A DNA stretch of 24,614 nucleotides from a virus. This document shows, in pieces, positions 4,197 through 24,614 of this stretch. The translations under genes and the position numbers were made by a program. Numbering within the stretch: the first letter of the stretch is position 1; every line of letters starts with the position of its first letter. The notes beneath the pieces are model-generated. The model had not been told where the DNA came from and did no database searches. It saw only the letters and a program-made list of their open reading frames with translations. Location of the stretch: positions 1 through 24,614 of the IMG/VR virus record IMGVR_UViG_3300019889_000038. One strand, written 5' to 3'.

Positions 4197-5537
4197 CTAC
4201 TTGATTGCGCCCCAGTTCGGACCTGTGCCCGTATCGACGCGCACAGGGATTGACAGCGGGATAGCGTTTTCCATGATCCACTCAATGCGCGCATACGCCT
4301 GCATCTGAATCGGGCTGTCATCGATTTGTGACCAGTCCAGCTCATCATGCACAGTGAGCGCGGGCACACCGACGATATCAAACAGCCCTTCTTTATTGCA
4401 CTGCACCATTGCCTTTTTGATACCGTCCGCATTCGTGCCCTGGGTACGACTGTTGAGCGCTGTATGCGTTTTGGCTCGCTTGATATTCGAGCCGTATTCC
4501 GCAGTAGCATGATTGAATCGCAGCGCTGGTACTTTGATGAACTTCTTAGCTGTGTCGTCCCATTCGTTTTTAGCTGGTTCCCACAGGTTGAAACGTCTGC
4601 GTCGTCCGAGAATGGTTGTGATGTAACCTTTTTCTTGCGCTTCATCGCTACACGCTTTGATAGTTGCTTTCACATACGGGTTACCGCTATGGTAAGCCTC
4701 TAGCAATGGCAAAGCCTCTTTCGTGCTGATGCCCAGTTCAGCGGCCAGCAGGTCAACACCCATTGCATTCATCAGACCGAAGTTGATTGTCTTAGTGGGC
4801 TTACGTTCAAGCTGCTTACCTGTATTTATACGAATCATCTCGCCGGTGACATCGTGATAATCCGTGCGCGGGTCATTGCGGTAGCGCTCGCGCAATTCAT
4901 CGGACCCAGGACCAACAGCGTAATGTGAAAGTATCCGATACTCGTACTGTGAAAAGTCAGTCTTGCGAAAGCACATGTGCCCATAGAAGGGTACAAACGC
5001 TGTGCGTATTTCCTTGCCTAGTTCCGTGCGAACAGGAATCGTTTGCAGATTAGGGTTATTAGACACGAAACGACCAGTACGGGCACCGCCATCAACATTA
5101 CGTAATGGTTCAAAAGAGCAATGCACAATACCGTTGACGTGCCGCTCAAGTAGAGTGCCGCGAATAAAGGTGCTTTCAATTTTGCCATGCTGTCTAATCT
5201 CCAACGCTAACTTTGCAACAGGGTGTGGTACAACCTTCAGGTCATCAGCGGTGATGCTGGGCTTCTTCGTCAGCGGTGTGATGCGGTACGGAATACCTAT
5301 CGCGTCGAATGCCTTCGCGATGTCACCTGTGGGCACGCTGGATGATGTGTCAATACCTGTTAGGTGTTTGAATTCCGCAATCTTGTCTTTCAACGCTGCG
5401 GCAATCATTTTTTCAAGCTGATATGTACGCTCAAGGTCGATACGCACACCCTGTCTGCGCATGGAATGAGCAACCGTATTAGGTCGCATTCCATGCGATA
5501 CAGTTCTAGCAAGTTCTCTTGCTGCATGATGGGCCAT
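4197..5537 (-). CDS. Family A DNA polymerase, polymerase domain (separate frame from its exonuclease)
   Basis: The frame holds all three PolA polymerase motifs. Motif A is TDFSQYEYRILSH (about residues 193-205), motif B is ERKPTKTINFG (Arg245, Lys249, NFG 252-254) and motif C is VHDE (396-399). A normal thumb/palm entry segment, GGARTGRFVSNNPNLQTIP, is also present. The motif B Tyr found in E. coli Pol I is replaced by Asn in NFGLMNAMG. The first 25 residues of this frame look non-homologous; the family-like sequence begins at MRRQGVRIDLE (ATG 5462), exactly where the upstream exonuclease frame loses its family resemblance. Other possible starts are ATG 5537 and 5489, none with a good ribosome-binding site. 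The protein may therefore be made by a -1 frameshift from the 5405-6217 gene, as a separate subunit, or the break may be a mutation or sequence error. It copies the phage genome. Confidence 0.88.
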   Translation of the reverse strand: MAHHAARELARTVSHGMRPNTVAHSMRRQGVRIDLERTYQLEKMIAAALKDKIAEFKHLTGIDTSSSVPTGDIAKAFDAIGIPYRITPLTKKPSITADDLKVVPHPVAKLALEIRQHGKIESTFIRGTLLERHVNGIVHCSFEPLRNVDGGARTGRFVSNNPNLQTIPVRTELGKEIRTAFVPFYGHMCFRKTDFSQYEYRILSHYAVGPGSDELRERYRNDPRTDYHDVTGEMIRINTGKQLERKPTKTINFGLMNAMGVDLLAAELGISTKEALPLLEAYHSGNPYVKATIKACSDEAQEKGYITTILGRRRRFNLWEPAKNEWDDTAKKFIKVPALRFNHATAEYGSNIKRAKTHTALNSRTQGTNADGIKKAMVQCNKEGLFDIVGVPALTVHDELDWSQIDDSPIQMQAYARIEWIMENAIPLSIPVRVDTGTGPNWGAIK

Positions 5538-6217
5538 TGCTTGAGCAGAATTGGCAGTATCAGCGCAGAGTCTTGTTCGGCATACGGACCCACAAGCTTA
5601 GGTGACGTGCGGTAAATGTTTGACCGCTGTGAGCGTGTTGGATTGCCGCCGAACGCAGCCGCGCACCACTCGTACAGCTCGTTAGTCTCTTTCTTATCGT
5701 CCAGGTACTTCTTTGCAAGCGTGTCCAGGTCTACGTTTTCGTCCTCACTGATTAGCGCTTCTGCAAACTGAACATCGTGAACTTCACCCGTAACAAAGAT
5801 GTTGTCTTCACATGTGGTGCCAATGTCGTATATCGCGTTTGCGTAACCCTTTGGTATATGCGGCGTGTTCGCGAGCGAGTCATATATGTATTGATCCACT
5901 GCGGCGGGCGGTAAGTTGAGGTGCGTATCAACAGTGTGCTTTTTGGGCAGGTAGAAGCTGCGCGACTCGTTGCCCCAGTACGCCGTGATGGAATGCCCAA
6001 CGATATCGACCTGACCACGTGACCAACCGGCCCCATAGTCAAAGTCCTTTTCGTGGTTCTCGGTGTCATGGGCAATGAAGCTACAACCGCTCAAATCTGG
6101 CCACTGGTGGGGCTGTAGCGGACGCCAGCCGGTTTCGCGATGCCCAGGCAGGGCGCGTAGCTGCGTACGGGCTCTGAGGGGCGCAGCGATCGTATCGAAA
6201 AGGGATTCGTAAGCCAT
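5405..6217 (-). CDS. Family A DNA polymerase, 3'-5' exonuclease domain (N-terminal half)
   Basis: This 270-residue product has a DnaQ/PolA-type proofreading exonuclease. Exo I is FIAHDTE (Asp51, Glu53), Exo II is YANAIYDIG (Asn127, Asp131) and Exo III is YAEQDSALI (Tyr212, Asp216). It then enters the usual linker to the polymerase, QWPIMQQENLLELYRMECDLIRLL. After that the frame reads PCADRVCVSTLSVHISLKK and stops, whereas the -1 frame continues the polymerase as MRRQGVRIDL. It starts at ATG 6217, overlapping the upstream stop as TGATG. The 133-bp overlap with the polymerase ORF is unusual. With the downstream frame it would form a normal-sized PolA of about 690 residues lacking a 5' nuclease domain, as is common in phages. 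Confidence 0.83.
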   Translation of the reverse strand: MAYESLFDTIAAPLRARTQLRALPGHRETGWRPLQPHQWPDLSGCSFIAHDTENHEKDFDYGAGWSRGQVDIVGHSITAYWGNESRSFYLPKKHTVDTHLNLPPAAVDQYIYDSLANTPHIPKGYANAIYDIGTTCEDNIFVTGEVHDVQFAEALISEDENVDLDTLAKKYLDDKKETNELYEWCAAAFGGNPTRSQRSNIYRTSPKLVGPYAEQDSALILPILLKQWPIMQQENLLELYRMECDLIRLLIPCADRVCVSTLSVHISLKK

Positions 6218-9907: not shown

Positions 9908-10768
9908 TTATTGTACCAGCGGATGGTGATGAATGCACCCTGTTTTTATTGTTTCGTCACTCAAATACTGCTTGAATCCGTTGCAGTACCACTGCTTGTT
10001 GTGTGCAGGTTGCGCGTAAACACAAGAGCGGCAATTTACTAACACAGCAGCACCCTTGTGACAAACCTGCAAAGCGTCACAGTATTTGCATTCAAACATG
10101 GCTGGGTTCTGGTGTAGTTTCTGTGGCGCTGTCTGTGACAAGATGACAAACTGAGCCTTTTGCAGCTCTTTCTTACCTAGTTCTAGGTCGATAGGCTGCA
10201 CTTCTATGTGCAGGCGGTCGTCATCTTTGTTGACTTGAAAATACGCGACGTGATAAAGGCCCTTTAGCAATCCATACGTTGCGGACTGTGACCAATGCAG
10301 CGGCTTAGCGCGCTGGAATCCCTGCTTTTCTAACGTGTTCCACTTGTCACCTGACTTGTTTGTTTTGAATTCAAGCAACATCCAATGTGGATAGTTGTAG
10401 CGCGCGGGCGGTAAACCTATCGCATCCATCGATCCGCCAAAGTGACCCTCAACGGCGTTGACTGTTATCTGTTTGCCTGTGTCCTGGTCGCGATCCATGA
10501 CCGTCCAACCTGCCCACAGTAGCATTTGAATAAACCACACTTCCTCACGGTGCCCGCGCTGCCAAAGACGGTACATGCGCGGCTCAGCAACGAAATGAAA
10601 CATCCAACGAAATTTGTACCAAAGGTAGCGTGAGCAACTGTTGCCAATCTCTGACGCGCCTAAGTGTCTGCGGTGTCCGTCATCGAACGTCATAGAGAAC
10701 GCGTCGATGTCAGCCCTAATCATTGAGGTGAGCTGTTGCCGGTCAAGCAGTGAATCCAGGTTTAGCAA
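9908..10768 (-). CDS. PD-(D/E)XK nuclease, Cas4/RecB-like, probable Fe-S protein
   Basis: This 286-residue protein shows the RecB-family catalytic set: His73 in RGHREE, Asp115 in GGSMDAIG, Glu133 and Lys135 in LLEFKTNKS, and Gln161 in SQSATYG. Cys45 lies in an ASEIGNSCSRYLWY motif, and Cys227, Cys230 and Cys236 form C-x2-C-x5-C near the other end. One N-terminal and three C-terminal cysteines is the 4Fe-4S arrangement of Cas4 and AddB. A second set (Cys246, Cys249, Cys262, Cys278 with nearby His) could bind zinc. The start is TTG 10768 with AAGAAGG just upstream; ATG appears only 15 codons later. The likely role is 5' or 3' end resection for Sak4/SSB-mediated recombination. It overlaps the zinc ribbon gene by 7 bp. 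Confidence 0.82.
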   Translation of the reverse strand: MLNLDSLLDRQQLTSMIRADIDAFSMTFDDGHRRHLGASEIGNSCSRYLWYKFRWMFHFVAEPRMYRLWQRGHREEVWFIQMLLWAGWTVMDRDQDTGKQITVNAVEGHFGGSMDAIGLPPARYNYPHWMLLEFKTNKSGDKWNTLEKQGFQRAKPLHWSQSATYGLLKGLYHVAYFQVNKDDDRLHIEVQPIDLELGKKELQKAQFVILSQTAPQKLHQNPAMFECKYCDALQVCHKGAAVLVNCRSCVYAQPAHNKQWYCNGFKQYLSDETIKTGCIHHHPLVQ

Positions 10769-13524: not shown

Positions 13525-13538
13525 AGTTGTGTTAGTTT
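13525..13538 (+). promoter_or_regulatory. Copy of the 14-bp recurrent motif (12/14 match)
   Basis: AGTTGTGTTAGTTT differs from TGCTGTGTTAGTTT at two positions and sits 7 bp before the GTG start of the RHH-like gene. Other copies lie at 18955, 19444, 21654, 21672, 21806 and 21824. Confidence 0.45.
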
Positions 13539-13545
13539 TGGGTTC

Positions 13546-13734
13546 GTGCCTGAAGATAAAGCCGAACCAACACGCAACGGCATATCAATGCTCGGAAACG
13601 ACAAGGTTCTACTGCTGAGATTGCGCAAGTATTACTTAGATAGCGAACATCATTCGCCGTCTACATCTGCGATCTACAGAGAAGGACTTAGAGCGCTTGC
13701 CGAAAAGTTAGGTGTATGCCTTGATACCCCATGA
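13546..13734 (+). CDS. Small DNA-binding-like protein, possible ribbon-helix-helix regulator
   Basis: The 62-residue reading from GTG 13546 (or 48 residues from ATG 13588) ends with VLLLRLRKYY followed by SPSTSAIYREGLRALAEKLGV. A short beta strand followed by a Ser-capped helix with YREGLRAL is the pattern of CopG/Arc-type ribbon-helix-helix proteins. It is the first gene of the rightward operon and adjoins a palindrome (13493-13511) and a copy of the 14-bp motif, which suits an autoregulator. Neither start has a clear ribosome-binding site. It overlaps the primase gene start by 14 bp. An in-frame extension to 13420 would cross these control elements and is unlikely. Identification as RHH is tentative. 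Confidence 0.45.
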   Translation: MPEDKAEPTRNGISMLGNDKVLLLRLRKYYLDSEHHSPSTSAIYREGLRALAEKLGVCLDTP

Positions 13735-16006
13735 AATGACCCAGTATGTTCAATGGGTCAACTGGCGCTATGAACTAGACGGCGCAGGGAAACCCACAAA
13801 AACACCTTATAACCCTACTTCCGGCAAGCATGCCAGCTCCACAAATACCAAAACTTGGAACAGCTTTCAAACGGTCGTTGCTGCGATGGCAACAGGCCAT
13901 TACAGCGGTATTGGCTTCGTACTAGCGTCTAGTGATCCGTACACCATCATCGACTTAGACGATCCGTACAAAGACGACGCGACCGAAGAGGAAGCGCTTG
14001 AAACACGCACACGTCACGGCAAAGTTATAGGCATGATGGACACCTATACCGAATGGTCACCATCCGGTAAGGGTATGCATGTAGTTGTGCGCGGGCGTGT
14101 TCAGACGGGCAGACGACGCGGCAAGATCGAAGTGTATAGCACTGAGCGATACATGACGATGACCGGCAACGTGTACCACAACGCCGATATCAAGGATCGT
14201 AACGACCTATTGCAAGAGTTATGGGCTGACTTAGGACCGCCAGAGTCAAAGACTGATTTTGTTGTACGTGAGGAAGCGCAGAAGCACACGGACCTTGAGA
14301 TTTACAACATCGCGATAAATGCAAAGAACGGTGACAAGTTTTACAAGCTCTGGCAGGGCAACTTTCAAGACGCTGGTTATCCAACACAGTCGCAGGCCGA
14401 CTTCGCATTAGTGAACATGCTAGGTCTGTATTCAAGGAACTGGGCACAGATAGAGCGTATGTTTCTATCGTCAGGCTTAGGCTACCGGATTGTTTCAGGG
14501 CAGAAAAGGAAGTCACGTAAGTACGTCCCGGACATGATCCGCCGCAGCTTTGATAATCAGGAACCTGACATCGACATTACTCAGCTAGTAGCTAAAGCGG
14601 AGTTACAGTTTAGCAAGCGAGTACATGTAACACAACCCGCTGTGCCTGCACTTGAGTGGGATATGCCGCCGGGGCTGCTAGGTGATATAGTGCGGTTCAT
14701 CTATGCAGCAGCGCCGCTACAAGTAAAAGAGGTAGCGCTTGCGGGTGCGTTGGGTTTGCTCGCTGGCATTGTGGGTAGATACTACAACGTTAGCGATGAA
14801 GGACTCAACCTTTATCTACTGGTACTCGCACCCACAGGTACAGGTAAAGAGGCTGCGGCGCGTGGCATTAGTAAGCTGATGGGTGCGGTTGAGAAGCTTG
14901 TGCCTGCTGCATCATCGTTTCGCGGTCCCGCAGAGATTGCATCAGGGCCAGCGCTCACTAAGTACCTCACTGATACATCGCCGTGCTGTCTCAGCATCCT
15001 GGGTGAGTTTGGTTTGCGCCTGCATCAACTCTGCGATCCGAACGCGCAATCGCACATGGTTGGTATCAAACGCTTGTTGCTCGACCTATTCCACAAGTCG
15101 GGCAAGTCGGGCCAGATACAGCCGCACATCTACAGCGACAAAGCCAAGAATACTGAGGTACTGTTTTCACCCAACTTTACGATGCTGGGCGAGTCAACGC
15201 CTGAAACTTTCTATCGATACCTAGATGATTCGATGGTAAGCGATGGGCTGTTGCCGCGTTTCGCCTGCATTGAATACACAGGCAAGCGTGGCGAGTTGAA
15301 CCGCAAGCACACAGAGGTAAAGCCCGATGCAGACCTAGTGCAACGTATGGCCGACCTAGCAAACAACTGCCTGGGCATGGCTGCGAACAAACGCGTCATT
15401 GACTGCATGTACACACCAGAGGCACATGATGTCTATTATTCGCTTGCTAGCCACTATACAAAGCTCATCAATGACGATTCAGACAACGAAGTCACCCGTC
15501 AGTTTTACAACCGTGCCCACATCAAAGTTATGAAGCTCGCGGGCCTAATAGCTGTGGGCGTCAATCCGATATACCCCGTCATCACAGTTGAGTACATCGA
15601 ATGGGGCCGCAACCTTGTTGAACGTGACATCACCAACATCATTCACAAGTTTCAATCGGGCAAGGTTGGACGCGAGACAGGCGAAGCTAATCAGGTTGGT
15701 GAGGTTGCGAACTGCATAAAAGAATACCTGTTCAAGCCGTATGGCCCAACGATGGCGAAAGCGCTCGTTGACGAGGCTATGCACAAGTCACACGTGATAC
15801 CGCATTCATACATAAGCAGGCAGTGCAGCGCTCGTGCGGCGTTTCGACTAGACAAGATGGGCAGTTCCTTTGCGATACGCCGTGCGCTCAACTCGCTACA
15901 GCATGACGGTGTGATTCGCGAAGTGAAAGAGCATTTGCTTTTCGAGCAGTTCGGCAAAAGGATGCAAGCGTACATCGTCACTGAAATGGATGCATTCACG
16001 AAATGA
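13721..16006 (+). CDS. Primase-polymerase / helicase fusion (NrS-1-like AEP domain plus DUF3987-like ATPase)
   Basis: The N-terminal part is an archaeo-eukaryotic-type primase of the NrS-1 group: QWVNWRYELDGAGKPTKTPY, the metal-binding IDLDD (Asp78, Asp80), the SPSGKGMH strand (113-120) and IEVYSTERYMTMTG (136-149). A helical linker follows, ending with SQADFALVNMLGLYSRNWAQ. The C-terminal half is a P-loop ATPase with Walker A APTGTGKE (about 370-377) and SILGEFG (about 425-431) where DUF3987/helicase relatives have hhhDE; the Asp is replaced by Gly. I favour TTG 13721 (AGGTG 7 bp upstream; gives the family-typical IPHEM start) over GTG 13712. It would prime, and perhaps unwind, the phage genome. 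The next gene overlaps by ATGA. Confidence 0.83.
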   Translation: MIPHEMTQYVQWVNWRYELDGAGKPTKTPYNPTSGKHASSTNTKTWNSFQTVVAAMATGHYSGIGFVLASSDPYTIIDLDDPYKDDATEEEALETRTRHGKVIGMMDTYTEWSPSGKGMHVVVRGRVQTGRRRGKIEVYSTERYMTMTGNVYHNADIKDRNDLLQELWADLGPPESKTDFVVREEAQKHTDLEIYNIAINAKNGDKFYKLWQGNFQDAGYPTQSQADFALVNMLGLYSRNWAQIERMFLSSGLGYRIVSGQKRKSRKYVPDMIRRSFDNQEPDIDITQLVAKAELQFSKRVHVTQPAVPALEWDMPPGLLGDIVRFIYAAAPLQVKEVALAGALGLLAGIVGRYYNVSDEGLNLYLLVLAPTGTGKEAAARGISKLMGAVEKLVPAASSFRGPAEIASGPALTKYLTDTSPCCLSILGEFGLRLHQLCDPNAQSHMVGIKRLLLDLFHKSGKSGQIQPHIYSDKAKNTEVLFSPNFTMLGESTPETFYRYLDDSMVSDGLLPRFACIEYTGKRGELNRKHTEVKPDADLVQRMADLANNCLGMAANKRVIDCMYTPEAHDVYYSLASHYTKLINDDSDNEVTRQFYNRAHIKVMKLAGLIAVGVNPIYPVITVEYIEWGRNLVERDITNIIHKFQSGKVGRETGEANQVGEVANCIKEYLFKPYGPTMAKALVDEAMHKSHVIPHSYISRQCSARAAFRLDKMGSSFAIRRALNSLQHDGVIREVKEHLLFEQFGKRMQAYIVTEMDAFTK

Positions 16007-16668
16007 ATGTATTCATCGGATGTGAAGAAAGCGGAGTTATACGTGACGCATTCCGGGCGCTTGGACACAACGCGTACTCGTGCGATCTAAAACCATCGTG
16101 GAATAACTCACCTTACCACTTTCAAGCTGACATCTTTTACGCGCTTTCATTACAGCCGCCTGATGGCGGCTGGGATTTAGGCATATTGCACCCTGAATGC
16201 CGCTATCTATCAGCATCAGGCCAACACTGGATTGGTAAGCCTGGGTATGAAAACCGAGCGCAAGATGTTGAGGAAGCTGTTGCGTTCTTCATGCGATGCG
16301 CAGAGCTGAAGCATGCTTTTCCGCGTCTCTGCATTGAAAACCCTATAAGCATTATGACGAAGCGTTACCGCAGGTGGAATCAAAAGATTCAACCGTACGA
16401 GTTTGGCGATGACGCAAGTAAGCAAACATGTTTGTGGACCTACAACTTACCGTTACTGAAGATTGACCCACTCGCTAGATGTGATGGTCGCTGGGTCACT
16501 AATCCTGTGAACGGTAAGTTAGTCGAGCGATGGAGCAACCAGACGGACAGCGGGCAAAACCGCTTAGGTCCATCAGAGAATCGCAGCGCACTTCGCGCAG
16601 AGACATACCCAGGGCCAGCGCAAGCAATGGCGTTGCAGTGGGGCGCATTACCGCGAATAGCGGCATAA
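16003..16668 (+). CDS. Phage DNA methyltransferase-like protein
   Basis: A 221-residue Rossmann-type protein of the phage family usually annotated as DNA cytosine methyltransferase-like. It begins with MNVFIGCEESGVIRDAFRALGH, an SAM-binding motif I with the following helix, then AYSCDLKPS. Next comes WDLGILHPECRYLSASG, where motif IV of 5mC enzymes would read PPC; here it is PEC (Cys66). LCIENPIS follows (112-114, ENP in place of motif VI ENV). It is too short to hold a full target-recognition domain. It may modify phage DNA or be a non-catalytic relative. It starts at ATG 16003 overlapping the primase stop (ATGA). Its stop falls in a repeated palindrome (16667-16678). Confidence 0.68.
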   Translation: MNVFIGCEESGVIRDAFRALGHNAYSCDLKPSWNNSPYHFQADIFYALSLQPPDGGWDLGILHPECRYLSASGQHWIGKPGYENRAQDVEEAVAFFMRCAELKHAFPRLCIENPISIMTKRYRRWNQKIQPYEFGDDASKQTCLWTYNLPLLKIDPLARCDGRWVTNPVNGKLVERWSNQTDSGQNRLGPSENRSALRAETYPGPAQAMALQWGALPRIAA

Positions 16669-16692
16669 GCATGCTTTTATAAGGGGACGAAC

Positions 16693-16911
16693 ATGGAACA
16701 GCCACAACTAACACTCACGCCTATTGATGAAGCACCAATGACAACCAACCTACAGCTAACCGAGAACCCGGATTTGATTCGGTCGATGCGTTATTACGAT
16801 CATGTCCGGCTATACTTCGATTGTGGCGATGCTGGTTTCGTATCGTTGACACGCGAGCAGGCTCGAAACGTTATATCTGAGCTAGAGCGCTTTTTAGGCG
16901 GCGCAAGATGA
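16693..16911 (+). CDS. Small hypothetical protein
   Basis: A 72-residue protein starting at ATG 16693 with a strong AAGGGGACGAAC ribosome-binding site. The C-terminal half, VRLYFDCGDAGFVSLTREQARNVISELERFL, reads as two strands and a long helix, a pattern common in tiny phage early proteins. The N-terminal third is proline- and threonine-rich and probably flexible. Its last bases overlap the next start as ATGA. No family is recognised. Confidence 0.65.
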   Translation: MEQPQLTLTPIDEAPMTTNLQLTENPDLIRSMRYYDHVRLYFDCGDAGFVSLTREQARNVISELERFLGGAR

Positions 16912-17015
16912 CCAGCGAACGCATAACCTGTATCAATGTTGGTCGTTGTCTCACTTACCTGTTCTGTGTTGCACTCGGTACGATTGTTGGCCTTGTATGG
17001 GAGCTGTGCAAATGA
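16908..17015 (+). CDS. Tiny single-pass membrane protein
   Basis: A 35-residue ORF starting at ATG 16908 in the ATGA overlap with the previous gene and ending in an ATGA overlap with the next. After a short N terminus it has one hydrophobic helix, CLTYLFCVALGTIVGLVW, so it is probably an inner-membrane micro-protein. It is shorter than known holins and lacks a charged tail, so a lysis role is only one possibility. Its reality is supported by the two exact four-base overlaps. Confidence 0.55.
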   Translation: MTSERITCINVGRCLTYLFCVALGTIVGLVWELCK

Positions 17016-17284
17016 AAGCCATCAATCCACCCATTGCAGGATGTGAGAACGTAACCGTAATGCTCGGTGCTAGTCAGCCCGAATATAATCCATTGCCCGC
17101 GCTGGTGCTCAAGACTCAAGAGCGGCACGTAATCACGCGATGGGAATTCTCAGATGAAGAGCGCGAAGCTATCGCAAACGGTGCAGACCTTGTAATTCAA
17201 ACGCTCACGTTCGGGCATGCATTCCAGCCCATCAACATGCAGGTACTAGACCGCGACGAACTACCGGACATCAGCACAACGTAA
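17012..17284 (+). CDS. Small hypothetical protein
   Basis: The 90-residue product begins at ATG 17012 (ATGA overlap, GGGAG upstream); an in-frame ATG at 16946 would overlap the membrane micro-gene and is rejected. It reads as a small beta-rich protein (VTVMLGASQ, HVITRWEFSDEEREAIANGADLVIQTLTFGHAFQPINMQV). The segment from EFSDEERE to FQPINM occurs in many unnamed phage proteins as I recall, with no known activity. It is the last gene of the rightward unit and is followed by the terminator at 17304-17330. Confidence 0.65.
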   Translation: MKAINPPIAGCENVTVMLGASQPEYNPLPALVLKTQERHVITRWEFSDEEREAIANGADLVIQTLTFGHAFQPINMQVLDRDELPDISTT

Positions 17285-17303
17285 GCATGCTTTTTCTTAC
17301 ACT

Positions 17304-17330
17304 AAAGCCCCTGTGAATATCAGGGGCTTT
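17304..17330. terminator. Bidirectional rho-independent terminator
   Basis: AAAGCCCCTG and CAGGGGCTTT form a perfect 10-bp stem with a 7-base loop between two converging gene groups. The terminal A:T pairs give a short U tract for both directions. It ends the rightward primase unit and the leftward small-gene unit that stops at 17344. Confidence 0.75.
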
Positions 17331-17343
17331 GTAAGCATGCTTT

Positions 17344-17484
17344 TTACCATGATCCTTTGCGCCGTTCGTCGTCTATAGACTGACATGTTGCGCAGGCATT
17401 GTTGGCACCACTCCGACCATTACATTCAGGGCAACGCGCAGTGTCGTGCCATGCGCGTACAAGGTTGCGAATAAAGCTCAACAT
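17344..17484 (-). CDS. Small zinc-finger protein
   Basis: A 46-residue ORF (ATG 17484 to TAA 17344) with a four-Cys finger, RCPEC (Cys18, Cys21) and ACATC (Cys31, Cys34), after a hydrophobic, basic N-terminal helix (MLSFIRNLVRAWHD). The tail is highly charged. The purine-rich GTAGAAAGATGG lies upstream. It is the last gene before the terminator. The finger resembles zinc ribbons in small phage proteins that dock on RNA polymerase or DNA, but nothing here proves a role. Confidence 0.55.
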   Translation of the reverse strand: MLSFIRNLVRAWHDTARCPECNGRSGANNACATCQSIDDERRKGSW

Positions 17485-17530
17485 ACAGAGCCATCTTTCT
17501 ACGTACGTTACTACTCAAACAACACATGCG

Positions 17531-17695
17531 TTATGGTTCGCCTGTGATGGCTTTGTTATCCTTCTCATGTTGTTCTGCTGTGCTGTCGTGCATAACTTGC
17601 TGCACTTCGCTAGCGAACTTTAGACCGATGCCCACAGCTACGATCATCAGCAAAAGCGCGATGAACCGCAGCGCGGCTTTATCCCAGGTGCCCAT
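17531..17695 (-). CDS. Small membrane protein, possible lysis accessory
   Basis: A 54-residue ORF from ATG 17695 with one N-terminal membrane helix (FIALLLMIVAVGIGLKFA) followed by a polar, helical C-terminal domain (SEVQQVMHDSTAEQHEKDNK). The N-in, C-out shape and size fit an i-spanin or small holin-like product, yet no endolysin gene lies nearby, so a lysis role is uncertain. No good ribosome-binding site is visible; no better start exists in frame. Confidence 0.5.
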   Translation of the reverse strand: MGTWDKAALRFIALLLMIVAVGIGLKFASEVQQVMHDSTAEQHEKDNKAITGEP

Positions 17696-17720
17696 GCAGG
17701 GGATAGTACCATGCTTGGAA

Positions 17721-17924
17721 TCATCTTTCTGACTCCTGTGTGTAGGGCTTGGCCGATTCGGGATCAGCGTGACGTGCTAGCTTGCGCGACCGCGTAGCGG
17801 AATCACGCGCGAACTCTTTCGCACCTTCGAGTGTGGTATACCCCGTATTTATTCGAACGCGCTTATCGCGATCGGAGAATTCCATCCAATATGTACCTCC
17901 AGGTACACGCCTGTAAACGCGCAT
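17721..17924 (-). CDS. Stand-alone integrase arm-type (AP2-like) DNA-binding domain protein
   Basis: A 67-residue basic protein starting at ATG 17924 in a TAATG overlap, with GGGTGAG upstream. The sequence RRVPGGTYWMEFSDRDKRVRINTGYTTLEGAKEFA follows the three-strand-plus-helix pattern of the arm-binding domain at the N terminus of tyrosine integrases, with the usual aromatic residue, basic strand and STG-like turn. There is no catalytic domain after it. Such free arm domains may compete with or assist integrase or excisionase at attachment-site arms. It could instead be a decayed remnant of an integrase gene. The resemblance is by eye only. Confidence 0.5.
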   Translation of the reverse strand: MRVYRRVPGGTYWMEFSDRDKRVRINTGYTTLEGAKEFARDSATRSRKLARHADPESAKPYTQESER

Positions 17925-18121
17925 TAGCTCACCCGCTTTTCGACGGCATCAACACGTGCCTCAAGCTTGCCTGTCAGGTGGTAGAACTGGCGCATGTCGC
18001 CTTCGATCACGGCAAGGCGCGATAGCAGCTCGCCGTGCCTTGCGGCGGCTTCAGCGCGATCCTGGGCGCGTGCTGCGGTGCTCTCAGTGCGCAGTGTGGA
18101 CGAGTCCGACCGATTGAGCAA
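17924..18121 (-). CDS. Small coiled-coil protein, possibly N-terminally truncated
   Basis: The 65 residues from TTG 18121 are nearly all helical and heptad-like, ending in RLAVIEGDMRQFYHLTGKLEARVDAVEKRVS, which resembles short phage and Acidobacteriota coiled-coil proteins with a membrane helix at the front. Reading further upstream in the same frame gives SVVLIGILLN, a piece of a membrane helix, and then ATG ACG CTG CAC TAA: a start codon followed four codons later by a stop. The intact gene may therefore have begun at that ATG and been broken by a nonsense change, or TTG is the true start. Its stop couples to the next gene (TAATG). Confidence 0.5.
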   Translation of the reverse strand: MLNRSDSSTLRTESTAARAQDRAEAAARHGELLSRLAVIEGDMRQFYHLTGKLEARVDAVEKRVS

Positions 18122-18348
18122 AATACCGATGAGAACGACCGATTAGTGCAGCGTCATGCATGTGCATTGCCTCAATCTTGAAGATAGTGTACCGCGTTAC
18201 AAGCTGGCCTGGGATGCTAACGAAACCATTTTCCCGCATCAATCGCTGCATCCAAACGCGATGACGCGGAAGCCTCTTCTACCTAATATCCCTGCGCGAT
18301 GTGTGCGACTGCCTTTCATAACTCAAACCTCGGAGAAATGTATCAATC

Positions 18349-18525
18349 CTACAGATAGCCGTAATATGTAACATCACCTTCGCGCCAAAGCTGCGTAAGA
18401 CCCTGTAACGTAACGTTGTCAGCGAGCACAAAGTGCTCAGGTGCAGGTCCGGCAGTGACACACGCGACAATGTTGGTCGCTTCATAGTCACGTTTCTTGA
18501 AATTGATGTTTTTGTAGATGGCCAT
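18349..18525 (-). CDS. Small hypothetical protein
   Basis: A 58-residue ORF from ATG 18525 to TAG 18349. It starts in a TAATG overlap with the 120-residue gene upstream, with ACAGG as a weak ribosome-binding site, and so is probably co-translated from the promoter at 18916-18944. It has mixed strands and helices (MAIYKNINFKKRDYEATNIV, then HFVLADNVTLQGLTQLW) and no cysteine pairs or membrane segment. No family recognised. The 227 bp downstream of it on this strand contain only very short or overlapping frames. Confidence 0.6.
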   Translation of the reverse strand: MAIYKNINFKKRDYEATNIVACVTAGPAPEHFVLADNVTLQGLTQLWREGDVTYYGYL

Positions 18526-18887
18526 TAGCGCACAGCCTGTTCTGTGGGTACAGCATCGACGCTGTACCCTTCGTGCTTACACATCCAATCCTGTGATTGG
18601 TTGGTGTGTTTGTGGAACCAATCCAATACAGCGATATCGTTAGAGAGGCCAGAAACAACAGCGACGCCATCACGCTTGATTGTGTATGTGCTTGCTGTGG
18701 CTTCGATTGTGACACAGTTAGTTTTCAAGTCAACAACTAGGCCACGATGCCGCGCAGCTTCGATAGCTTCGCCTTTGGTTTCGTAGAACATAGGGAAACC
18801 ATGCAAGTTGCACAGGTTAGCGTCTTCAATCGTGGAACCGAAGACAAAGGCGTAAGCGGCATTTACGGGAAAGTATAAAAGGTACAT
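18525..18887 (-). CDS. Hypothetical early protein
   Basis: A 120-residue protein starting at ATG 18887 with an excellent AGAGGAGAT ribosome-binding site and a dedicated promoter at 18916-18944. The sequence suggests a small alpha/beta domain: FVFGSTIEDANLCNLHGFPMFYETKGEAIEAARHRG followed by ATASTYTIKRDGVAVVSGLSNDIAVLDWFHKH, where the second part resembles a strand-turn-strand followed by a helix seen in other small proteins of this cluster. No named family. It is the lead gene of a two-gene unit. Confidence 0.7.
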   Translation of the reverse strand: MYLLYFPVNAAYAFVFGSTIEDANLCNLHGFPMFYETKGEAIEAARHRGLVVDLKTNCVTIEATASTYTIKRDGVAVVSGLSNDIAVLDWFHKHTNQSQDWMCKHEGYSVDAVPTEQAVR

Positions 18888-18915
18888 GTGTGCAATCTCC
18901 TCTGCAACAATTACA

Positions 18916-18944
18916 ACTGTATATAATCAAATGCACAATGTCAA
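18916..18944 (-). promoter_or_regulatory. Sigma70-type promoter P1 (18916-18944)
   Basis: On the minus strand TTGACA (18939-18944) and TACAGT (18916-18921) lie 17 bp apart, followed about 10 bp later by the AGAGGAGAT site of the 120-residue gene. The -35 hexamer matches consensus exactly, and the same spacer and -10 recur at 20957-20985. Confidence 0.7.
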
Positions 18945-18954
18945 CCGAATAATG

Positions 18955-18968
18955 AAAATAACACAGCA
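18955..18968 (-). promoter_or_regulatory. 14-bp motif next to P1 (13/14 match)
   Basis: AAAATAACACAGCA on the plus strand matches AAACTAACACAGCA with one mismatch and ends 10 bp upstream of the P1 -35 element, a position suited to an operator or activator site. It also forms one side of an AAAATAA / TTATTTT inverted repeat. Confidence 0.5.
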
Positions 18969-18971
18969 GCC

Positions 18972-19082
18972 TTATTTTCCTAAATACACGCATACCGCAA
19001 TGTAAGCAGTTGCGCCCGCAAGGAACGTGCTCAGCAACGCACTTACGACACATTCAGAGCTAAACATTTTATTGCGCATCAT
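18972..19082 (-). CDS. Tiny membrane protein
   Basis: A 36-residue ORF starting at ATG 19082, 2 bp after the stop of the gene before it (GAATAGGCATGATG), so the two are probably coupled. After MMRNKMFSSEC there is one hydrophobic helix, VVSALLSTFLAGATAYIAVCVYL, ending in GK. It is likely a membrane micro-protein. A second ATG one codon later is an alternative. No family recognised. Confidence 0.5.
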   Translation of the reverse strand: MMRNKMFSSECVVSALLSTFLAGATAYIAVCVYLGK

Positions 19083-19084
19083 GC

Positions 19085-19285
19085 CTATTCGCTCGATTCG
19101 ACAACATCACCAAAACGGTTGTATATCGCCCAGGTTGTCAGCTTGTCAAAAGCAACTGCGCCGCGTGCCTCGTCCAGTGTGTCAAATCCACCTTGCGAGT
19201 AGTTGTATGTCAAATCAACAACTTCAAACATAGGTGTATCTCCCATGGGCGCATCTGGCCCGTTGATTGCCATGAATGCCAGCAT
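19085..19285 (-). CDS. Small hypothetical protein
   Basis: Sixty-six residues from ATG 19285, which overlaps the upstream stop as TAATG. A second plausible start is ATG 19231, with GGGAG 8 bp upstream, giving the 48-residue product MFEVVDLTYNYSQGGFDTLDEARGAVAFDKLTTWAIYNRFGDVVESSE split by no motif I know. The latter has the compact strand-helix-strand look of small phage proteins, with a DTLDEAR helix start like a swapped or SPOR-like repeat, so the shorter form may be the main one. It is the middle gene of a three-gene unit. Confidence 0.6.
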   Translation of the reverse strand: MLAFMAINGPDAPMGDTPMFEVVDLTYNYSQGGFDTLDEARGAVAFDKLTTWAIYNRFGDVVESSE

Positions 19286-19416
19286 TAGTATTTCGCTCGC
19301 TCGTTGTATGTTGCACGCGCGTTAGCAGTGAATAAGCTAATTGGTCTGCGGTAGTGGATAGCATCAACTATTGCACGATCCATCGCCAATAGTTGCTCAA
19401 AATCTCGCTGTGTCAT
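19285..19416 (-). CDS. Small hypothetical protein
   Basis: A 43-residue, mostly helical ORF from ATG 19416, with the shared leader AAGTGAGGTT about 9 bp upstream and promoter 19439-19467 behind it. The sequence MTQRDFEQLLAMDRAIVDAI is amphipathic; the C terminus is basic and ends AKY. Its stop overlaps the next start as TAATG. The promoter and coupling make it likely to be real despite its size. Function unknown. Confidence 0.55.
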   Translation of the reverse strand: MTQRDFEQLLAMDRAIVDAIHYRRPISLFTANARATYNERAKY

Positions 19417-19438
19417 AGTGTGTAACCTCACTTGCACA

Positions 19439-19467
19439 ACAATAAACTAACACAACATGCAATGCAA
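19439..19467 (-). promoter_or_regulatory. Sigma70-type promoter P2 (19439-19467)
   Basis: On the minus strand TTGCAT (19462-19467) and TATTGT (19439-19444) are separated by 17 bp. The downstream leader AGTGAGGTT is shared with P3 and P4. A copy of the 14-bp motif lies between the two hexamers. Confidence 0.6.
19444..19457 (-). promoter_or_regulatory. 14-bp motif inside P2 (13/14 match)
   Basis: AAACTAACACAACA on the plus strand differs from AAACTAACACAGCA at one position. It lies within the P2 spacer, where bound protein would block RNA polymerase, so it is the best operator candidate of the set. Confidence 0.55.
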
Positions 19468-19507
19468 TATAAATCGTATCAATCTCAGCAAATAGTTTAC
19501 GGACAAG

Positions 19508-19536
19508 TAAAAAGGCCACCTCAATAGAGATAGCCT
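19508..19536 (-). terminator. Rho-independent terminator after the 100-residue gene
   Basis: In the minus-strand direction AGGCTATCTC and GAGGTGGCCT form a 10-bp stem with two G-U pairs and a TATT loop, followed by TTTT. It lies 20 bp past the stop at 19557 and separates that unit from P2. Confidence 0.7.
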
Positions 19537-19556
19537 GTGCGTAATACTGTCTTGTA

Positions 19557-19859
19557 CTATCGTGCGTTTGCAATCGCATCAGTTGCTTTTTTGAAACCGT
19601 CTGGACCGTAGAACACATCGACCATGTATGCAGACGCGCCGTGAACAAGCACAAACGCTTTGTAAGGATGTGTTTCGCCTATGTGCGGAATAAATCGCTC
19701 GATTGTGCCGATGACAGCATTACCACGTTTGACTTTCCACGTGTGAGACTGCGCGCCAACATTGGACGGGTTCAAAACAGTTGTAATTGCGTTGAGTTTC
19801 GCGTCACGCTCCGCGCGTGCCTTAGCTGCTGTGTTGGGCTGTTTCTTGAACATCTGCAT
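19557..19859 (-). CDS. Hypothetical early protein
   Basis: A 100-residue basic protein. I choose ATG 19859 (MQMFKK), which has AGGAGA about 8 bp upstream; an in-frame extension to 20003 would overlay the 52-residue gene. ATG 19853 is an alternative. The N terminus is a charged helix (NTAAKARAERDAKLNAI); the rest reads as strands (TWKVKRGNAVIGTIERFI, AFVLVHGASAYMVDVFYG) and a final helix (GFKKATDAIANAR), resembling a small binding fold. It is second in the unit driven by P3 and is followed by a good terminator. No family recognised. Confidence 0.68.
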   Translation of the reverse strand: MQMFKKQPNTAAKARAERDAKLNAITTVLNPSNVGAQSHTWKVKRGNAVIGTIERFIPHIGETHPYKAFVLVHGASAYMVDVFYGPDGFKKATDAIANAR

Positions 19860-19893
19860 ATCTGTATCTCCTGTGTGTATCGAACTGTTGTGA

Positions 19894-20052
19894 TTAGTTG
19901 ACTGAGGCAAACTTTTCAAACTTGACGACATCGTGCCAACCTGGGTTCTGCATGCGCGCGATACGCTCAGCCGTCCAGTAATCGGCAGCCTCAACCTCGA
20001 CAACTTTGTCCGCTACTCCCGCGTATCCCTTGAACGTCAGCTTATATGTCAT
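19894..20052 (-). CDS. Small hypothetical early protein
   Basis: A 52-residue ORF from ATG 20052, preceded by the common leader AAGTGAGGTTGTGAGCC and promoter P3. The sequence is a strand pair and a helix: TYKLTFKGYAGVADKVVEVEAADYWTAERIARM, then NPGWHDVVKFEKFA. The EAADYWTAERIA segment is like helices in small phage proteins whose strands describe a beta-hairpin, but no family is known to me. It is the first gene of a two-gene unit. Confidence 0.62.
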   Translation of the reverse strand: MTYKLTFKGYAGVADKVVEVEAADYWTAERIARMQNPGWHDVVKFEKFASVN

Positions 20053-20074
20053 GGCTCACAACCTCACTTTCCAT

Positions 20075-20103
20075 ACAGTAATTGTATCTCAGCACAATGT
20101 CAA
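20075..20103 (-). promoter_or_regulatory. Sigma70-type promoter P3 (20075-20103)
   Basis: On the minus strand TTGACA (20098-20103) and TACTGT (20075-20080) lie 17 bp apart. The first six spacer bases, TTGTGC, are identical to those of P1, and the downstream AGTGAGGTT leader matches P2 and P4. Confidence 0.7.
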
Positions 20104-20133
20104 CATAATAATTGCATCAATCACAACATACTG

Positions 20134-20736
20134 TCAGCAATAAATCAGACCATCATCGCCAACATACACATCGACCTCGCCAAACGCCTTAGATGTATCC
20201 GTCATATACTTGCCCGCGTCTTCTGACCAGTCGCCATCCCAGAACCCAGCGCCGTGCCCGTTACGCGTCAGCCAAAAGTCATGGCCAGCCTGTTTCGCGT
20301 TTCCGTCGATATCGCGCTCGTGCGCAGTCTCGAAAATGGCGCAATCTTTGATGGTGCGCGTGACAAAATCAAAACTCATGTCTGGAATTGTCTTACCGTA
20401 CAGCTCGTGCCCGTCCTCAGCACCGTCAGTGAAAAACATTGCTTCGATGTACGCGCCCAGGAATTCAGACTTTGCGATTGCATCGCGCATAATCTCACCA
20501 CGCGGAAAAACTTCCTTGCCTACAGTCAACTCCTGTGCATCGCGTGAAAGAGCATGCAGCGCAACGCCGTCATGCTGGTCCGAATCATCGCCGTTTGTCA
20601 GCGTGATATCAACCAAATCGCCGTCTTTCTTGTCAAACTCGAAACGGATACCGCCATCTGTGGGCAGGTTGCTCGCGGGCCAGTTGTTTCTAAACTCGCT
20701 AATTTCATCTTGGCTGACGAATACGATAAAAGACAT
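20134..20736 (-). CDS. Conserved phage hypothetical protein
   Basis: A 200-residue, very acidic soluble protein starting at ATG 20736 with GGGGAAA 8 bp upstream. The C-terminal segment GHDFWLTRNGHGAGFWDGDW is a recurrent phage signature I recognise from many unnamed early proteins. In that group it follows a helical part (DIDGNAKQA), as here. The acidic character (many Asp and Glu) could suggest DNA mimicry, but that is conjecture. It is the second gene of the P4 unit, 40 bp after the 52-residue gene. Confidence 0.72.
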   Translation of the reverse strand: MSFIVFVSQDEISEFRNNWPASNLPTDGGIRFEFDKKDGDLVDITLTNGDDSDQHDGVALHALSRDAQELTVGKEVFPRGEIMRDAIAKSEFLGAYIEAMFFTDGAEDGHELYGKTIPDMSFDFVTRTIKDCAIFETAHERDIDGNAKQAGHDFWLTRNGHGAGFWDGDWSEDAGKYMTDTSKAFGEVDVYVGDDGLIYC

Positions 20737-20776
20737 GTGCGTTTCCCCTGTACTTGTGCGATCTGTTGTTAGCGAT

Positions 20777-20935
20777 TTATTTTGCTGATGCGAGCGCTGC
20801 GCGCTGCCTAAGCGAGATTGCCTCAGTTAGCGAACGATAACGGAAAACCTGGTGCGCACTCATTGCCTTGCGAGTTAGTTTGTTTATCTCTGCCGTAATC
20901 TCTGCGTCAGTCATGTCTTGTATAAGTTTTTTCAT
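20777..20935 (-). CDS. Small helical early protein
   Basis: A 52-residue basic, almost entirely helical ORF from ATG 20935, with the shared GAAGTGAGGTTGCAGAC leader and promoter P4. The sequence begins MKKLIQDMTDAEITAEINKL, with a LTDAE-like helix cap, and ends in a basic helix (AISLRQRAALASAK). No family recognised. It heads the unit that also contains the 200-residue gene. Confidence 0.58.
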   Translation of the reverse strand: MKKLIQDMTDAEITAEINKLTRKAMSAHQVFRYRSLTEAISLRQRAALASAK

Positions 20936-20956
20936 GTCTGCAACCTCACTTCTCAT

Positions 20957-20985
20957 ACTGTATCGAATGGCTGCGCTAATGTCAA
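20957..20985 (-). promoter_or_regulatory. Sigma70-type promoter P4 (20957-20985)
   Basis: On the minus strand TTGACA (20980-20985) and TACAGT (20957-20962) lie 17 bp apart, followed by GAAGTGAGGTT. Both hexamers are identical to those of P1. Confidence 0.7.
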
Positions 20986-21004
20986 CAGATAAATCGTTTG
21001 TATC

Positions 21005-21463
21005 TCAGTCGTATGTGTATTTGCGCTGTCTAATGGGTTTATAGTCGCCCATGTCATCAGCATATTTCACAGCACGTGCGACCGTCCGCACTGACCATAT
21101 ATGCTCGCCATCCTTGTAGATGTGGAATATAGGCAAGTTACGCTTGCTCACTGCTCGGTTGATACTGTATTCGCGAAAGTTGACTGTATCGCCAAACTGC
21201 ATGCTTTCAATCTGCACCTGGATACGCGTCTTGTATGGTTTGCCCACAGTGGGTTTGAGTGGTTCAAGTTTCACAATGCGCGCATCCACATACTTAGCTG
21301 CTGTCTGTAGTGAGTATGTGGTCATTACAGTTTTCCAATCGCGCAGAACATGAAACACATTGTTGCCTCGTCTGCTGATCTTACGTTCTACCTGATATTG
21401 GCCGAACACACAAACCGTATCCACCTGCATTGCAGATAATGAATAAAACGTATCGTCATTCAT
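21005..21463 (-). CDS. Hypothetical protein with an internal tandem domain repeat
   Basis: I start at ATG 21463, giving 152 residues; the in-frame extension to 21598 is Leu/Tyr-rich and lies in AT-rich non-coding sequence. Two copies of a domain of about 50 residues are visible. The first is MQVDTVCVFGQYQVERKISR, then VFHVLRDW and TAAKYVD. The second is MQFGDTVNFREYSINRAVSK, then IFHIYKDG and RAVKYAD. Each is strand-strand-helix with a basic centre. The linker is LEPLKPTVGKPYKTRIQVQIES. Such repeats occur in small phage DNA- or protein-binding proteins. It is the most upstream gene of the leftward battery and borders the putative origin. Confidence 0.65.
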   Translation of the reverse strand: MNDDTFYSLSAMQVDTVCVFGQYQVERKISRRGNNVFHVLRDWKTVMTTYSLQTAAKYVDARIVKLEPLKPTVGKPYKTRIQVQIESMQFGDTVNFREYSINRAVSKRNLPIFHIYKDGEHIWSVRTVARAVKYADDMGDYKPIRQRKYTYD

Positions 21464-21573
21464 AGTGCATGTTTTACCATAGTTCCCAGTATAACGAGCA
21501 AGAATGTGTAACTCTATTAGAATGAGAAGTAAGTCCACGCATATGTATAAGGTATAGGTGGTAGTGATATACA

Positions 21574-21605
21574 AAATCTGCAATCTGTAAATCTGCAAAT
21601 CTGCA
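21574..21605 (+). repeat. Tandem AAATCTGCA iteron-like repeats
   Basis: AAATCTGCA occurs at 21574-21582, 21589-21597 and 21597-21605, with a partial copy AATCTGT at 21582-21588. Further exact copies are at 21792-21800 and 22112-22120. Confidence 0.6.
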
Positions 21606-21653
21606 CTGGTAAAATATGCATATCAATCACAGCAGCTATATGTCTGAATCAAG

Positions 21654-21685
21654 AAACTAACACAGCAAAATAAACTAACACAGCA
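21654..21685 (-). repeat. Direct pair of AAACTAACACAGCA, 18 bp apart (left of AT tract)
   Basis: Two identical 14-mers at 21654-21667 and 21672-21685 start 18 bp apart, just left of the AT-rich tract. They are the reverse complement of the pair to the right of it. Confidence 0.65.
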
Positions 21686-21805
21686 GTATTCTAGTGATTT
21701 TATACTATATTATATATATTATATATATTATATTCTTTATTATCTATAACTTACCTATTATAGAATGTACCCTGAGTATAACAACCTGGAGAAATCTGCA
21801 ATTAG

Positions 21806-21837
21806 TGCTCTGTTAGTTTTGTTTACTCTGTTAGTTT
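21806..21837 (+). repeat. Direct pair of the 14-bp motif in inverse orientation (right of AT tract)
   Basis: TGCTCTGTTAGTTT at 21806-21819 (13/14 to TGCTGTGTTAGTTT) and TACTCTGTTAGTTT at 21824-21837 (12/14) also start 18 bp apart. The spacing equals that of the left pair. Confidence 0.6.
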
Positions 21838-22156
21838 TAGTCACTCACACAAGGTGAGCTAATACCATATTAGTTAGTGTATGGTTATACATGCAATAGA
21901 TGCAATCACTTAGCATATGGTTGCTTGATAACGTGACTAAAACGTGACACGAGTGATCTGCATTCGATACGCTGTGATGTATACACAAATAAAGTTGGTA
22001 ATAAAGAGGGCCATACCCCTTTTTGGTGCTTCGATTGCCGCACGTTAGCGTCCCAGAATCCCCCGGTAATTTTTGAAACTCTTCTGCTGAGATTCATACA
22101 CACAATGCTAAAAATCTGCATACAAATATTTTCTGCACATTCACTGTGTAATTTAT

Positions 22157-22185
22157 TTGACATGCTGTGATTGCTGGCGTATGTT
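22157..22185 (+). promoter_or_regulatory. Sigma70-type promoter for the DUF1653 gene
   Basis: TTGACA (22157-22162) and TATGTT (22180-22185) are 17 bp apart. The ATG at 22192 follows the -10 element by only 6 bp, so transcription would start at or next to the start codon (leaderless mRNA). The alternative TTG 22171 start would lie inside the promoter. Confidence 0.6.
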
Positions 22186-23820: not shown

Positions 23821-23910
23821 GCATTTCTATGTAAATAACGCTTGTGTTCTGCTGTCATTGTGCGTACATTGAGTACATCGGTTGCTGAGATTGATTTACG
23901 TAAGTTCAGT

Positions 23911-24011: not shown

Positions 24012-24206
24012 ATGAAATTGTTACTTACCAAAGCGGAAGCCGCTGAAAGACTGGGGCAAGACGTTAGCGTCCTGGACAACTGGCGGTACAACGGCACTGG
24101 TCCTGCCTTTGTCAAACTCCCAAAACAGGTTATGTATGCGCCTGCTGACTTGGAAGCATTCATTACCAATTGCACAGTACAACCAATCCTCACGCACAAC
24201 GCGTAG
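24012..24206 (+). CDS. Excisionase-like / MerR-type helix-turn-helix protein
   Basis: A 64-residue protein from ATG 24012 (GAGGG 9 bp upstream; TTG 24009 is an alternative). It fits the HTH_17 pattern: LLTKAEAAERLGQDVSVLDNWR, then GTGPAFVKLPKQVMYAPADLEAFI, where the second part is the beta-wing and closing helix. Proteins of this type next to an integrase act as excisionase or as recombination directionality factors. Two perfect inverted repeats lie just upstream and may be its sites. The integrase follows by 17 bp in the same direction. Confidence 0.78.
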   Translation: MKLLLTKAEAAERLGQDVSVLDNWRYNGTGPAFVKLPKQVMYAPADLEAFITNCTVQPILTHNA

Positions 24207-24223
24207 AAAAAGAGGCAACTTGC

Positions 24224-24614
24224 TTGGATACATACGAAAAACCAGATAGTAAGTTTCGATGGTGTAGCTTTGTTGTTGATGGCAAGCGGTATCGGAAGTC
24301 AACCAAACAGACAAGCAAGGCAAAGGCGAGTACCGCTGCTGATGCGTTGATGCAGGCTGTGATTCAAGGTAAAAACGTCCAATTCAATAAGAAGAATCGT
24401 CCACCCACACTTGTAGAGTTTTCTGTGTACTTCCTCAAGTGCATTGAGGAAGGGCGTAGCTCGCCGAACACAAAGAAGTATTACAAGAATGGCTGGCGTC
24501 TACTCTCCACACAGCCTATTGCTGATATCCGCATCGATCGAATCACAACAACGATTGCTGACACTGTGACTGCGCCTGGGTCACCGTCGAACGTGAACAA
24601 CGCGCTTAGTACAC
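24224..24614 (+). CDS. int: Tyrosine integrase, N-terminal part (3' truncated by window end)
   Basis: An open frame from TTG 24224, with AGAGG 8 bp upstream, runs to the end of the window (130 codons). It has an arm-type start, RWCSFVVDGKRYRKSTKQTSKAKAS, and a helix (AADALMQAVIQGK). The core-binding SAM-like domain follows: PTLVEFSVYFLKCIEEGRSSPNTKKYYKNGWRLL, then PIADIRIDRITTTIADTV and SPSNVNNALS. This is the canonical layout of phage tyrosine recombinases. The catalytic R-H-R-Y residues lie beyond the window. It indicates a temperate life cycle. Other families with a SAM-like domain are less likely given the Xis-like neighbour. Confidence 0.85.
   Translation, partial: MDTYEKPDSKFRWCSFVVDGKRYRKSTKQTSKAKASTAADALMQAVIQGKNVQFNKKNRPPTLVEFSVYFLKCIEEGRSSPNTKKYYKNGWRLLSTQPIADIRIDRITTTIADTVTAPGSPSNVNNALST

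Follow-up and report, generated by a model that had tools for sequence, protein, structure and literature searches.

A putative set of oriented operators beside an origin-like element in a Septimatrevirus/Lokivirus-type phage fragment

At a lambda-type iteron origin, tandem sites spaced by about 18 bp lie beside an AT-rich stretch near the replication genes. The stoperators of mycobacteriophage L5 and other cluster A phages are asymmetric 13-bp sites oriented according to the direction of transcription; L5 has more than twenty of them, their orientation is important for function, and a phage repressor recognises them (PMC9283540). Phages T1 and Stevie carry asymmetric 22-bp repeats that are mostly intergenic and take one orientation with respect to transcription (PMC4319613). 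Here we describe a set of asymmetric repeats of 13–14 bp in a viral sequence of 24.6 kb (IMG/VR record IMGVR_UViG_3300019889_000038, 24,614 nucleotides, referred to here as the window), a linear fragment that is the entire virus record and about half of a phage genome.

The window sites share with the L5 and cluster A stoperators a length of about 13 bp, asymmetry, a location in intergenic gaps and promoters, and an orientation that tracks transcription. They differ from them in sequence, in belonging to an unrelated phage group, in forming pairs 18 and 33 bp apart, in flanking an origin-like element, and in number, with 13 in half a genome against more than twenty in L5. Like the T1 and Stevie repeats, they are asymmetric, mostly intergenic and oriented with transcription, whereas the T1 and Stevie repeats are longer, have a different sequence (VWATAGCAYKWWTTGYTAAAAV) and belong to lytic phages. 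Tandem 18-bp-spaced sites beside an AT-rich stretch near replication genes are common to the window and the lambda-type origin; unlike that origin, the window also has sites on scattered promoters, and its conserved iterons are the 9-bp repeats in the arms of the origin-like element, not the 14-mer. The resemblance to the L5 and T1/Stevie systems is one of layout, and membership is not claimed.

We propose that the repeats are a phage-specific set of asymmetric operators, TGCTGTGTTAGTTT (class I) and TGYTGWGATTGAT (class II), through which one regulator, probably encoded by the phage, would control a group of promoters together. Judged from the sequence, this reading has a probability of roughly 0.6. 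The first-pass annotation had listed seven copies of the class I motif, and every coordinate, strand and mismatch count was correct on re-scanning:

13525–13538, plus strand: class I site AGTTGTGTTAGTTT, upstream of the ribbon-helix-helix (RHH)-like gene and primase operon
18955–18968, minus strand: class I site TGCTGTGTTATTTT, starting 24 bp upstream of TTGACA-17-TACAGT (18944–18916), gene at 18887
19444–19457, minus strand: class I site TGTTGTGTTAGTTT, upstream of the gene at 19416 and inside the TTGCAT-17-TATTGT spacer
21654–21667, minus strand: exact class I site TGCTGTGTTAGTTT
21672–21685, minus strand: exact class I site TGCTGTGTTAGTTT, 18 bp from the 21654 site
21806–21819, plus strand: class I site TGCTCTGTTAGTTT
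21824–21837, plus strand: class I site TACTCTGTTAGTTT, 18 bp from the 21806 site

With up to three mismatches allowed, the window contains 10 matches to the motif where 2.88 are expected, a number reached by none of 100 dinucleotide shuffles. All seven listed sites lie in non-coding DNA by the gene map (11.7% of the window), in keeping with the earlier statement that nearly all copies are non-coding. A position weight matrix (PWM) built from these seven gives them scores of at least 19.6, followed by 15.0 for a match at 10036 and then by 12.7. The four copies at 21.6–21.8 kb are, as originally described, two inverted pairs within whose arms the copies are direct repeats 18 bp apart; the arms of this inverted repeat (21654–21688 and 21803–21837) are 35 nt long, 83% complementary and separated by 114 nt.

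Sharing the left half of class I is class II, with six sites (four exact 13-mers and two with one mismatch), all of them non-coding. Class II was first picked out by eye in the sequence and then checked by unsupervised counting: when all 13-mers were counted with one mismatch allowed, the top two families were AACTAACACAGCA, corresponding to class I, and TATCAATCTCAGC, corresponding to class II. The class II sites, together with one weak variant, are the following:

19477–19490, minus strand: class II site TGCTGAGATTGATA, 33 bp from the 19444 site
20081–20094, minus strand: weak class II variant TGCTGAGATACAAT, inside the TTGACA-17-TACTGT spacer and 34 bp away from the 20115 site
20115–20128, minus strand: class II site TGTTGTGATTGATG, starting 25 bp upstream of TTGACA
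21621–21634, minus strand: class II site TGCTGTGATTGATA, 33 bp from the 21654 site
22085–22098, plus strand: class II site TGCTGAGATTCATA
22163–22176, plus strand: class II site TGCTGTGATTGCTG, inside the spacer of the promoter-like box TTGACA-17-TATGTT (22157–22185) of the rightward gene starting near 22183
23883–23896, plus strand: class II site TGCTGAGATTGATT, upstream of the Xis-like and integrase genes, with a weak partner 33 bp upstream at 23850

The 13 strong sites of both classes have the consensus TGYTGWGWTWGWT. Among the 14 best-scoring sites of a joint PWM built from both classes, 13 fall in the non-coding 11.7% of the window; the score ranking is partly circular because the matrix was built from the same sites, but non-coding placement and orientation were not inputs to it. 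A de novo motif search of the non-coding DNA (maximum of 25 sites) recovered the same motif with a loose model, and the site list therefore rests on the PWM and the 13-mer counts.

The strong sites are confined to gaps and are concentrated, within the window, at 13.5 kb and 18.9–23.9 kb. All 13 non-coding strong sites point with the transcription of the downstream gene, and the change of polarity from minus to plus coincides exactly with the AT-rich arm in the divergent region; as the sites are clustered in about six gaps, they do not count as 13 independent trials. Recurring on the same strand are spacings of 33 or 34 bp (19477/19444, 21654/21621, 20115/20081 and, weakly, 23850/23883) and of 18 bp (two pairs), and no site has an opposite-strand partner within 60 bp. 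Copied spacers, in which the sites would be mere remnants of intergenic duplications and bind nothing, are a very improbable explanation. Adjacent genes of the small-gene battery do share leaders such as AACCTCACTT (repeat family D2), but similarity between the sites is limited to 13–14 bp in differing surroundings, and the copies, widely separated between 13.5 and 23.9 kb, use both strands while keeping a coherent polarity.

Several sites coincide with promoter-like boxes, either filling the spacer or lying at 23–26 bp upstream of a TTGACA-like sequence. Upstream of the leftward TTGACA boxes at 18944 and 20100, a site starts at a distance of 24–25 bp; a third leftward TTGACA box (20985) has merely degenerate sequence at that distance. 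The 19444 site, on the minus strand, fits the spacer of TTGCAT-17-TATTGT, as had been described for one copy lying between a −10 and a −35 element, and the 19477 site is located upstream of the −35 of the same box. A distance of 24–25 bp upstream of TTGACA is activator-like, and every strong site points with transcription, so that the motif might itself be a promoter or activator element (an activator box, or a site for a phage-specific sigma factor or polymerase), which would also explain the common orientation. We regard this as unlikely, given that the distance to the −35 and −10 varies, with sites upstream of the −35 or at differing offsets in the spacer, that the sites come as 18- and 33-bp pairs, and that near-consensus TTGACA boxes are present, for which an extra promoter code is unneeded.

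If the repeats are operators, we infer binding by a single protein, at sites in the −35/−10 spacer or just upstream of the −35. The targets would be the primase operon and the promoters of the leftward small genes, of the rightward gene and of xis/int, and occupancy would hold them under common control, most likely through repression. The right arm of the origin-like element is flanked by the tandem pairs at 21.65 and 21.81 kb, whose occupancy could also gate the divergent promoters or the opening of an origin. The earlier proposal of one regulator shared by the 21.7-kb region, the primase operon and the leftward small-gene battery fits the site set well, with the proteins named for this role being candidates at most.

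The origin-like element in the divergent region is AT-rich and carries short direct iterons (AT 0.90, autocorrelation of 0.51 at a 9-bp period); two inverted arms can be recognised in it, of which the right one is the AT-rich tract:

21529–21569, minus strand: left arm of the origin-like element, with box GGACTTAC and degenerate iterons TATACCTTATACATAT, recognised by eye and not detected by the profile
21708–21758, plus strand: right arm of the origin-like element, with AT iterons of 9-bp period and box TCTATAACTTAC (family consensus TCAATGACTTAG)

An nhmmer profile made from relatives only (iterons TTATATTTA and box TCAATGACTTAG) matches the right arm with an E value of 0.64 in 1.94 Mb and of 0.0003 in the 900-bp neighbourhood, a match that carries a large composition correction. 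Arm pairs facing inwards are present in 27 related loci, some of them depending on weak individual matches, and the reverse arrangement in one. In relatives the AT-richest non-coding stretch is mostly located downstream of the primase and often has a 9-bp period. The cumulative GC skew of the window reaches its minimum at 21–22 kb. Owing to the AT-richness, the iterons, the inverted arms, the primase neighbourhood and the skew minimum, the element at 21.53–21.76 kb is suggested to be a replication origin. In a limited literature search, no account turned up of such an element lying downstream of the primase of Septimatrevirus-like phages.

The left pair of 14-mers sits between the arms and the right pair just beyond the right arm. 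Motif copies flank the tract, as first reported, but the tract is a separate element, kept in relatives that do not have the motif. Two 18-bp-spaced tandem pairs placed symmetrically around the AT-rich arm, which many relatives carry close to the primase as an origin-like element, and the position of the skew minimum could indicate that the class I sites are iterons of a replication initiator, the primase-helicase or a partner, with the inverted pairs helping to melt the arm and the outlying copies serving titration or autoregulation. We think it improbable that they are: the family already has conserved 9-bp iterons and a box of its own, the 14-mer is missing from relatives with homologous primases, and class II and several class I sites are on promoters distant from the origin. 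An attachment site (attP) at 21.6–21.8 kb, with the 14-mers as arm-type sites for integrase and excisionase around an AT-rich core, is far less likely still. The direct-repeat pairs on either side of the core and the presence of a Xis-like gene and of the first part of an integrase gene would suit it; the array is, however, 2.4 kb from int, further copies are found at 13.5, 18.9 and 19.4 kb, and the core is conserved in relatives without integrase in the inspected annotations. In the same divergent intergenic region are all five window copies of another word, AAATCTGC (21574, 21589, 21597, 21792 and 22112), on one strand.

The gene order of the window is that of the Septimatrevirus/Lokivirus-type siphophages. 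The primase/helicase (gene at 13712–16006, plus strand, protein at 13712–16003; phrog_3022, E value 1.4e-205; DUF3987) is adjoined by a Sak4-like protein and a Cas4-domain exonuclease. PaMx42, Halfdan, Langgrundblatt2 and XAJ2 have primases of 37–46% identity, and the polymerase-helicase-Cas4-Sak4 order and the origin-like element downstream of the primase are common to the window and this group. The window departs from them in its Xis-like and integrase genes, in an RHH-like gene that replaces the HTH (helix-turn-helix) repressor-like one, and in the putative 14-mer operators. At its right end are an HTH_17 excisionase-like gene and the first part of an integrase gene, a content indicative of a temperate phage; these genes occupy 24033–24614, and the nearest named relatives are without integrase in the inspected annotations. 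The DNA polymerase (4197–6217) is encoded by two overlapping open reading frames in different frames (4197–5537 and 5405–6217), which may reflect a frameshift, an assembly error or a genuine split; Langgrundblatt2, XAJ2 and similar relatives have a single polymerase gene of about 2 kb. The word TAAGCATGCTTTT, which contains a palindrome, occurs at 16667, 17283 and 17333, between or after plus-strand genes downstream of the primase. No Rfam families or tRNA genes were found in the window.

Absence from relatives with the same gene order had been named in the first-pass annotation as evidence that would count against the motif, and such an absence is what we observe: in 1.92 Mb of primase-anchored related loci the 14-mer is not in excess (10 matches with up to two mismatches, 12.3 expected). 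As a refutation this is weak, because the primases are mostly less than 50% identical and most of these loci carry a different regulator gene. Several relatives have a word of their own to the left and right of the right arm (ATTGATTAAAAGT in PSV3 and locus L041, for instance). Such genome-specific words flank the arm more often than chance predicts: of 29 loci, nine, one of them the window, reach p ≤ 0.05, with some loci mutually related and the zones picked after inspection. A swap of regulator would explain an operator that differs among relatives. A scan of the collection for two TGTTAGTTT cores 18 bp apart returned 13 loci, all unrelated. Dispersed repeats in loci L036 and L109 were considered as operators and rejected, resembling −35 boxes and ribosome-binding sites instead, and the different repeat set of L051, which has the same gene order, was unconvincing.

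The leading candidate for the regulator, as yet unproven, is the 62-residue protein encoded at 13546–13734 (plus strand), which has RHH-like features and a class I site directly upstream of its gene. Its assignment to the RHH fold is tentative: one related protein matches RHH_1 with an E value of 0.024, below significance, and a seven-sequence profile gives non-significant matches to TTHA0139 (0.043) and ParD1 (1.1). The predicted structure consists of two helices (predicted local distance difference test score, pLDDT, of 74), and a fold search with it gave no significant match. In most relatives the gene just before the primase encodes a small HTH protein, whose PHROG match in the named phages is mostly to a transcriptional repressor. 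In the window and a few relatives this position is held by an RHH-like protein unrelated to the HTH type; relatives of the 13546 protein precede the primase in L051 (E value 2.7e-7), where the gene is most similar, and, with weaker matches, in L058, L063 and L036. The duplicated-domain protein at 21005, the other candidate put forward initially, finds no support: its model has a pLDDT of 37 and is uninterpretable, and it has no DNA-binding match. No L5-type repressor, with HTH and stoperator domains, was recognised among the scanned window proteins, no dedicated search having been made. One alternative candidate is encoded near the right end:

24033–24206, plus strand: HTH_17 excisionase-like protein, alternative candidate DNA-binding protein

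Several points weigh against an operator set read by one regulator. The next-best class I match, at 10036 on the minus strand, lies within the coding sequence of the Cas4 exonuclease and was absent from the original list. Class II, recognised after looking, could belong to a different protein. Promoter boxes, counted as consensus matches, are not enriched over shuffles across the whole region, so those at the sites are plausible promoters only. The 13546 protein has no significant match in Pfam, PHROG or PDB, and the actual regulator may be encoded outside the window, which holds only about half of the genome. Close relatives, in which conservation of the sites could be judged, were sought among viral contigs through the primase and the 22183 protein, and none was found in the collections. 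The primase alignment, comprising 80 viral and 21 genome loci, has a best full-length identity of 47%; no primase in the phage collection exceeds 60% identity to that of the window, and the matches of the 20137 protein are distant.

A further word is strongly over-represented in this phage group. The 8-mer TGCCCACA (complement TGTGGGCA) is present in 626 copies, with 71 expected, in 1.69 Mb of related loci (L015–L109), is the top 8-mer in 39 loci, and is absent from control loci totalling 93 kb. In the window, too, it ranks first among 8-mers, with 17 copies where fewer than two are expected, mostly within genes (566, 1567, 2271, 2478, 5328, 7387, 8032, 9804, 10511, 11561, 15514, 17629, 20659, 21241, 22419, 23027 and 23523). 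The window primase weakly matches the helix-bundle domain of NrS-1 polymerase; this domain recognises 5′-GTG in ORF904, and the words that NrS-1 polymerase uses on its template are 5′-GTGA and 5′-GTGG (PMC8718748). As the 8-mer contains GTGG, it may mark priming sites recognised by the primase.

A broader scenario, which we consider doubtful, is that a temperate offshoot of a mainly lytic group swapped the small HTH repressor-like gene beside its primase for an RHH-type regulator; the genome would then be silenced through dispersed, direction-dependent sites resembling stoperators, with one arm of the conserved origin held between inverted pairs, coupling immunity to replication. Dispersed oriented operators are already familiar from the cluster A mycobacteriophages, and in T1-like phages such repeats are without an assigned role. 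An unrelated further case, in which pairs of sites also flank an origin, would give a tractable system for studying the role of site orientation and a possible control of replication by immunity sites. The comparison reveals, in addition, an origin-like element common to a large group of siphophages.

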